From contig CP091034.1 of the NCBI GenBank assembly GCA_039725955.1, positions 1,116,001 through 1,180,000 of the forward strand: a DNA stretch of 64,000 nt, in the 5' to 3' direction. This document shows positions 3,802 to 4,265 of this stretch, piece after piece. The stretch is from Sinorhizobium sp. B11. GTDB lineage: Bacteria > Pseudomonadota > Alphaproteobacteria > Rhizobiales > Rhizobiaceae. The translations under genes and the position numbers were made by a program. How positions within the stretch are numbered: position 1 is the first letter of the stretch; each line of letters begins with the position of its first letter. The notes under the pieces are model-generated. The model was not told the origin of the DNA. It was given only the letters and a program-made list of their open reading frames with translations, and did no database searches.

Positions 3802-4073
3802 CCTATCCTCTTGAAAATGAATAAGTATTTTTCAACTTCCGGCATATTTGCCGTGATTTATCGGCTAAGTCATTGATTCTGTTTAAGTGATGCATCCAAG
3901 GCCAAAACTTCTTTTTAAATTCGATTTCAGCAAAGGCTGCCTCTGATTTTGAAATTCTTTACGCGAAGTTTTGAGGTCAAGTGGATCACTTAAACAGGAT
4001 CAATGACTTAGCGCCCAAAACACCGCATTTAAGGCTCATTTTGAAAATTCTTATTCATATTCAAATGGATAGG
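3802..4073. repeat. 272-bp AT-rich imperfect palindrome, MITE-like
   Basis: The two halves pair around a centre near 3938. The ends are CCTATCC (3802-3808) and GGATAGG (4067-4073), followed inward by matching ATGAATAAG and CTTATTCAT blocks. A 26-bp block at 3866-3891 pairs with 3985-4010 with one mismatch, and AAAACTTC (3904-3911) pairs with GAAGTTTT (3965-3972). Overall arm identity is roughly 75% by eye. Composition is clearly more AT-rich than the flanking genes. No transposase and no convincing target-site duplication are seen. It could be a miniature inverted-repeat element or a long structured transcript. Confidence 0.75.
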
Positions 4074-4083
4074 GAGAAATTGG

Positions 4084-4197
4084 ATGCCGCGCCGGTTGCC
4101 GATGAATCAATCTGTAAAGAGCCGGAATCAACCATTGAGGAAAAAGCTGCAAAGGATTCAGAAGCTTAACGGATTTGCAGTCTTTGGCGCCGACTGA
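4084..4197 (+). CDS. Possible 37-residue basic peptide
   Basis: ATG 4084 follows GGGAGA by several bases and opens a 37-codon frame rich in Arg, Lys and Gln. A second overlapping frame (3981-4169) gives an acidic tail ending in AAKDSEA, so at most one is real. It sits at the right edge of the palindrome. Nothing in either peptide is recognisable; coding is doubtful. Confidence 0.2.
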   Translation: MPRRLPMNQSVKSRNQPLRKKLQRIQKLNGFAVFGAD

Positions 4198-4265
4198 CCG
4201 GGCTTCCTGCGCCGAGGGCAGGGCGCTGGTTCTCCGCTGGTTGTGGGGACATCATAATCAACGGA

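Follow-up and report, generated by a model that had tools for sequence, protein, structure and literature searches.

Flanked by genes that Pfam assigns to Dabb and MFS, the palindrome at positions 3802-4073 of the window, by which is meant the whole stretch of 64,000 nucleotides that was analysed (G000:C2:1116001-1180000), is, judged from its sequence, probably an array of DNA sites of epsilon15-like podovirus origin that would represent a pac-type packaging-initiation site recognised by TerS. The best reading is that the array either serves, or is left from, a GTA-like system. That a podovirus-derived GTA in Rhizobium still starts packaging at two fixed pac sites, the copies A and B described below, is a more tentative proposal, which we hold to be possible rather than probable. 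A MITE it is not, and the evidence at present speaks against an RNA.

Architecture of the palindrome

The segment folds as a single end-to-end hairpin with an MFE of -108 kcal/mol, which is equalled by none of 200 dinucleotide shuffles (average -53.35, sd 4.42; z -12.4). The palindrome described in an earlier, sequence-only reading is thus real, with pairing over its whole length that is far better than that of shuffled sequence. The complementarity of the arms amounts to 87% for 3802-3831/4044-4073 and to 72% for 3829-3911/3965-4047, and the inner block that had been said to carry one mismatch is borne out, with a single mismatch in DNA over the 28 positions of 3864-3891 and 3985-4012, which becomes a G-U pair in the RNA fold. 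The remark that the annotated genes do not explain the palindrome was also right, and of the three possibilities then offered, a MITE, a remnant of an inverted duplication or a long double-stranded RNA, none included a phage packaging site.

The palindrome is made up of four sites of ~27 bp in the order > > < <, each of which can be read by eye as an imperfect dyad with 12-bp halves and a 3-bp spacer. The outer two are weaker and stand 61-62 bp outside the inner pair. The suggested inverted duplication fits this geometry, in which a site-spacer-site module is repeated in inverted order. By eye, the sites also resemble IHF sites. The features of the array are as follows.

3802-4073, minus strand (the orientation of the element): copy A, the whole pac-like array
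3803-3831, plus strand: outer left site, CTATCCTCTTGAAAATGAATAAGTATTTT
3865-3890, plus strand: inner left site, CTAAGTCATTGATTCTGTTTAAGTGA
3891-3985, no strand: AT-rich asymmetric centre with the conserved GAAATTCTTTACGCG inside, less conserved than the sites
3986-4011, minus strand: inner right site, CTAAGTCATTGATCCTGTTTAAGTGA, which runs on as TCCACTT
4044-4072, minus strand: outer right site, CTATCCATTTGAATATGAATAAGAATTTT

Only a single arm extends as GATCCACTT, and the element therefore has an orientation. This arm is on the right in copy A, and in copy B and the related phage it faces away from terS. The centre is a possible candidate for the region of cleavage.

What are the ends of the element? 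At the exact place of copy A, 13 of 15 element-less relatives (G130 not counted) have the small palindrome TTCCATTGAAATTTCAAATGGAT or one that closely resembles it, the other two, G102 and G052, not being alignable there. Copy A lies in the middle of this small palindrome, of which G130 retains the right half only. The CCTATCC/GGATAGG ends that had been assigned to the palindrome are indeed present; the outermost CTATCC/GGATAG is probably host sequence outside the element, and the CTATCC..TTGAA part of the outer left site probably belongs to the older small palindrome. No clear target duplication is seen around the element.

Next to the array, a small conserved segment (4074-4200) contains two competing short frames, one acidic and one basic, and is also present in element-less species. 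A small open reading frame within it (4102-4197) was considered as part of the element and rejected, since several species have the frame interrupted and the segment occurs without the element too.

Two copies at mostly shared loci

The palindrome is not single-copy. The genome of the window (G000) contains a diverged copy B at C2:2508597-2508805, 1.4 Mb from copy A and beside phage terS-terL genes, and the array is kept in other species. With up to 3 mismatches the site pattern is found in G000 only at the A locus and at C2:2508658-2508804, a slightly shorter pattern revealing a third, outer, site of copy B. Among 148 genomes of the genus, inverted site pairs are present in 14, in each at two loci, and the starts of the paired sites are 120-125 bp apart (121-123 in 24 of the 28 pairs). 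The sole other match in the 148 is a lone site in G035, and a control with the reversed pattern gave 0 matches over the same genomes. The pattern has no match in 393 other sampled genomes of the family, and an exact-pattern scan of GTDB contigs returned 20 stretches, all titled Rhizobium or Rhizobiales; contigs of Rhizobium mesosinicum HU56 are among those that bear the arrays. At the DNA level neither A nor B matches any of 72,556 plasmids, and B, the only copy used in that search, matches none of 50,697 phage records.

In 13 of the 14 genomes the Dabb-MFS locus is where copy A is found, with extra DNA on the Dabb side in G096, and copy B lies within about 7 kb of terS-terL in all 14. The exception is G130, in which the A locus is without the element, a point that counts against the pac reading, and the second copy is elsewhere, near what by eye are rlmE-, VOC- and MFS-like genes; both arrays of this genome are ordered > < > <. 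The neighbours of the arrays vary (G147, G123, G096, G130).

The lone site of G035 (L034, G035:C1:960998-961022) corresponds to the right half of an element like copy B. This genome has no match to TerL, portal or tail, and the site is possibly a trace of transfer. In G109 (L174, G109:C1:2014000-2032000) additional terS and terL 3' fragments flank the intact pair, which suggests repeated duplication at the terS-terL locus. Two other roles for the palindrome were considered and rejected. A terminator is at odds with the inconstant directions of the flanking genes, and for a chromosome site placed symmetrically about the origin the distances do not agree: parS-like sites are at 4.556-4.602 Mb, with A ~1.2 Mb and B ~2.1 Mb away (2.6 Mb the other way), GC-skew samples being too noisy for placing ori or ter.

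A dispersed phage gene set in the same genomes

The phage genes were compared with those of a phage contig of 42 kb (G534), in which terS is followed by TerL, head-tail adaptor (portal), protease, major head protein and tail genes. Stop-free TerL homologues, 90-100% identical to that of G000, occur in the same 14 genomes that bear the element; elsewhere TerL is found at 74% in five other genomes and at 28-32% in three. Likewise, homologues of the phage portal are present at 79-81% in the same 14, at 67-68% in the same five and at 34% in one, and those of the phage tail protein at 81-83% in the 14, at 70-71% in the five and at 27-41% in six more. The portal match of G134, over residues 1-549 of 561, contains one flagged TGA. 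Each tail match in the 14 has 1-3 flagged stops, and as a frame of 699 residues is open in 14/14 these stops probably lie before its start, in an overlong part of the query. In the five genomes for which TerL was compared with that of the phage, the identity is 80-83% in G000, G147, G130 and G101 and 72% in G081. TerS has a match to Pfam Terminase_2. In G000 the homologous genes are placed as follows, all on C2.

2.510 Mb: terS-terL
2.564-2.569 Mb: head genes
2.634-2.641 Mb: tail genes and an endolysin-like gene
2.642 Mb: fibre
2.650-2.657 Mb: internal virion protein pieces
C2:2685215-2685835 (2.685 Mb): repressor-like gene, 63% to the phage regulator
2.687 Mb: primase-like genes (by eye)

These genes retain the order of the phage and span C2:2509854-2685799, ~176 kb as against 42 kb for the related phage contig, and the genes in between look, by eye, like those of the host. 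Such dispersal is what is looked for in a GTA. The wider region G000:C2:2509854-2689645 (L064, L263-L265, L293-L296) holds a dispersed, colinear, epsilon15-like gene set, and between its head and tail clusters two proteins that look by eye like calcium-binding-repeat proteins (2572846-2576390) are encoded, along with a third one of KTSC type (2579708-2580025), also by eye. In 7 of the 14 genomes TerL, portal and tail share a contig, in constant order, with 27-68 kb from TerL to portal and 44-77 kb from portal to tail. The five other genomes are compact, with corresponding distances of 2.5-4.5 kb and 8-11 kb. This compact cluster (G080, G081, G085, G110, G146; L169-L173, L302-L303) is a relative at 67-74% with a different TerS, and represents either a prophage or a second GTA-like lineage; in G081 it has a regulator 64% identical to that of the phage, and its major head gene matches in two pieces.

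The terS-terL, portal and tail genes are present in all 14 genomes, and the head, fibre, endolysin-like and repressor genes in inspected genomes, which for the head genes were G000, G147, G130, G101 and G098. The protease/scaffold-type head gene (L263:13260-13980) is split over two frames in G000, while G117, a genome of the same species, and the other inspected genomes have it as one frame. Like the flagged TGA in the portal match of G134, the split weighs against the main reading; it is either a break or a sequence error.

Sites 5' of terS and the protein that probably reads them

Within the IMG/VR collection one stretch matches the site pattern (L145/L181), where an inverted pair lies ~120 bp 5' of terS in the G534 contig with its virion genes, as would be expected of a pac-type site. 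By eye, the orientation of copy B relative to terS in G000 is that of the G534 phage. Four of five phage records have one pair each at 0-2 mismatches, a count to be read with the facts that three of those four are fragments, that only one record of the five is as long as 30 kb and that further single matches at 2-3 mismatches occur, also in the reversed control.

Of 71 related phage loci, the 42 in which terS could be placed and enough upstream sequence was present were tested. On the 5' side of terS, 19 of these have an inverted pair with a score higher than any of 20 mononucleotide shuffles gave, where ~2 would be expected. The other 23 are not above their shuffles, 21 of them being without any scoring pair. 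A gap of 97-101 bp between the sites recurs in 11 of the 42 loci despite differing site sequences, a figure that includes two near-identical sets.

Which protein, then, reads the sites? In 16 phage loci, site similarity tracks the similarity of the 58 N-terminal residues of TerS, its DNA-binding part, here called TerS N58 (rho 0.41, p 0.0016), and continues to do so given TerL (0.43, p 0.002) or given the remaining TerS (0.41, p 0.003). The remaining TerS shows no such relation over the same loci (rho 0.14, p 0.17), and TerL shows a lesser one (rho 0.26, p 0.03; given TerS N58 0.30, p 0.015). These 16 are what is left of the 42 after setting aside the 21 loci without a scoring pair, L197 and L240, which nearly duplicate other loci, and L202, L214 and L236, where the pair is weak or has another spacing; L209 is retained though it merely equals its shuffles. 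For instance, L195 and L209 are similar in their sites and in the N-termini of TerS (66%) and not in the C-termini (29%). The five genomes with a TerL at 74% have another TerS, 36-38% identical to that of G000, and neither such sites nor a comparable array 5' of terS. The covariation with TerS N58, together with these five site-less genomes, suggests that TerS is what reads the sites and that the array is where it would start packaging.

The N-terminus of TerS is kept in 12 of the 14 genomes. Its HTH region is missing in G129 (L178) and G130 (L114), where the frame is open and the rest conserved, and both genomes retain two arrays despite the HTH-less TerS, which runs counter to the pac reading. 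An HTH-less TerS is a trait reported for known GTAs, not one that defines them, and since the clade as a whole does not have it the gene set is described here as GTA-like and not as a proven GTA.

A different protein could in principle bind the same sites. The interval 5' of terS in epsilon15 has an annotated repressor site, and an operator array is therefore conceivable, at which a phage-derived regulator, such as the repressor-like product of C2:2685215-2685835, would control the genes beside A and B. The dyad form of the sites as read by eye and the retention of the regulator homologue in G000 (63%) agree with this explanation. It is nevertheless unlikely, as in G000 the sites occur at up to 3 mismatches at A and B only, and even at up to 8 mismatches there is none in 2553-2613 kb, the location of the head genes. 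Moreover, G081 has the same regulator (64%) with a differing TerS (34-36%) and has no such sites near its cluster, the neighbours of the arrays are inconstant, and in phages the type of site goes with the N-terminus of TerS.

Selection, inheritance and the possibility of decay

An alternative is that A and B are the packaging sites of a dead prophage, functionless, whose likeness reflects slow decay or gene conversion between the copies. The evidence that would accord with a relic consists of the loss of the HTH in two genomes, the head gene in two frames in G000, the lone half-element in G035 with no TerL, portal or tail, and the similarity of A and B, which is slightly greater within a genome than between genomes (0.719 vs 0.699, p 0.00015, 12 genomes) and fits gene conversion as well as the main reading, for which it also counts. 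Against this, the centre of the array diverges and the sites remain near-identical: mean pairwise identity over 12 genomes is 0.93/0.87 for the inner sites of A vs 0.65 for its centre, and 0.96/0.87 vs 0.79 for B. The core is present in both arms in 25 of 26 elements, and the conservation of the element is mainly one of sequence.

Two loci are moreover kept in all 14 genomes, and the phage genes are under purifying selection at a level like that of a host gene. Median dN/dS is 0.108 for TerL, 0.086 for the tail gene and 0.106 for the host MFS gene (14 genomes, 90 pairs each), 0.068 for the portal (8 of the 14 genomes, 27 pairs) and 0.225 for TerS, while partial capsid sequences from 6 of 8 genomes give 0.023 with a dS of 0.227. 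With TerL, portal and tail thus at 0.07-0.11, the chance that the arrays are functionless is, in our judgement, small. The dS of TerL, TerS, tail and portal (0.37-0.42) is close to that of the host MFS gene (0.42), as expected if they are inherited with the chromosome. The genes are therefore kept and inherited in the manner of a GTA, the split head gene of G000 and the portal stop of G134 being exceptions.

The 14 genomes cluster together against the few outgroups used, but their internal branching is not the same in the MFS, TerL and tail trees. G129 and G130 branch off first in the trees of TerL, of the tail gene and of the combined data, and not in that of MFS. Given this disagreement, and since dS correlates weakly from gene to gene (-0.29 to 0.58), there has likely been exchange among members of the clade.

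RNA and mobile-element explanations

The stability of the fold invites a structured non-coding RNA or an RNase III substrate, in line with the long double-stranded RNA of the earlier proposal. In an alignment (A4) that omits G096, which is without a left outer arm, all five pairing measures are above all 500 shuffles, with for example 10 pairs changed on both sides vs 5.0, and slid controls score lower; shuffles of this kind can, however, be exceeded by related sequences without structure. RNAalifold gives unfavourable terms for covariation (+1.1 and +0.64), 29 of 61 pairs are invariant, the pairs that vary most are broken in up to 4 of 12 sequences, and Rfam at gathering thresholds has no match in the window, so that a role as RNA is very improbable and the dsRNA proposal is not favoured. 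A further alignment (A3) omits G109, for which the similarity search gave no locus of the B copy, and G130.

The MITE of the same reading, or any other mobile repeat, can be dismissed as hardly credible: the inverted repeats, the second copy, the element-less locus of relatives and the other locus in G130 are in keeping with it, but not the occurrence at two loci in 14/14 genomes, the same ones in 13/14, nor the lack of matches in the 393 other family genomes, the plasmids (A, B) and the phage records (B) or of a clear target duplication.

Relation to known systems

Among phages, the epsilon15-type podoviruses (Uetakevirus) have a similar terminase: the TerL of G000 shares 54% identity with its epsilon15 counterpart and 53% with the one from phiV10, and its TerS 39% with that of epsilon15. 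The joined ends of epsilon15 and of Tyrion are without an inverted pair of this kind. The record of the epsilon15 TerS notes a similarity to that of Bacillus phage SF6, and the pac region of SPP1/SF6, as described in the text cited, offers a likeness in that a region by the start of terS is recognised by an HTH-bearing TerS (PMC4737164). The boxes of SPP1 are there given as direct repeats (PMC4737164), whereas the Rhizobium array has inverted sites of ~27 bp with a ~98-bp gap, and, unlike SPP1/SF6, there is a second chromosomal copy of the array without terminase genes.

Among GTAs, RcGTA of Rhodobacter capsulatus is alike in having phage-derived genes that are kept by the host at several scattered loci, in the account drawn on here (PMC9662315), and its gp1 is stated to be without an HTH (PMC6854486), like the TerS of G129 and G130. 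Its architecture is described as siphovirus-like (PMC11409702), whereas the Rhizobium genes are of podovirus type, and unlike RcGTA the Rhizobium clade has two conserved candidate sites. BaGTA of Bartonella is another alphaproteobacterial GTA, with packaged DNA biased around a discrete locus, a bias which the cited text ascribes to a run-off replication origin and not to a packaging site (PMC11841831). More generally, the TerS proteins of GTAs are characterised as lacking an HTH domain (PMC6854486, PMC11841831). A podovirus-like GTA, FpGTA, is reported for Faecalibacterium prausnitzii (PMC12946183); this is a gut bacterium with two operons, in contrast to the several dispersed clusters and pac-like arrays of an alphaproteobacterium. 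In the literature on GTAs of Rhizobium or of podovirus origin, the present system is not reported among the matches listed.

A proposed mechanism and its significance

In the phage, the N-terminal HTH of TerS would grip the inverted sites, ~98 bp apart and just 5' of terS, and TerS would bring TerL to cut between or near the paired sites. In G000 the phage genes extend over ~176 kb with other genes between them, so that a head for a phage genome of ~40 kb could not hold them all. Upon induction, packaging of chromosomal DNA would start at A and at B. The order of genes in phages such as P22 and lambda provides an analogy for direction, by which packaging from B would run rightwards through terS; copy A is inverted, and packaging from it would thus run leftwards through the Dabb gene. 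Recognition by TerS is inferred from its covariation with the sites, and the later steps, the production of particles and any benefit to the host included, are conjectural.

How a phage that packages itself turns into a machine that packages the DNA of its host is an open question. Discrete packaging start sites had been shown for no GTA, nor found for RcGTA, according to the statements cited from 2019 and 2021 (PMC6854486, PMC7947584). If functional, the arrays would belong to a GTA-like system that begins packaging at fixed places in the chromosome, of a sort said in those same statements not to have been found before (PMC6854486, PMC7947584), and defined regions of the Rhizobium chromosome would be exported preferentially. 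The clade would then represent GTA evolution in progress, two genomes having lost the DNA-binding domain of TerS and the other twelve retaining it. Within one clade there are phage genes under purifying selection, sites specific in sequence, and TerS with and without an HTH, and this combination makes the switch testable.
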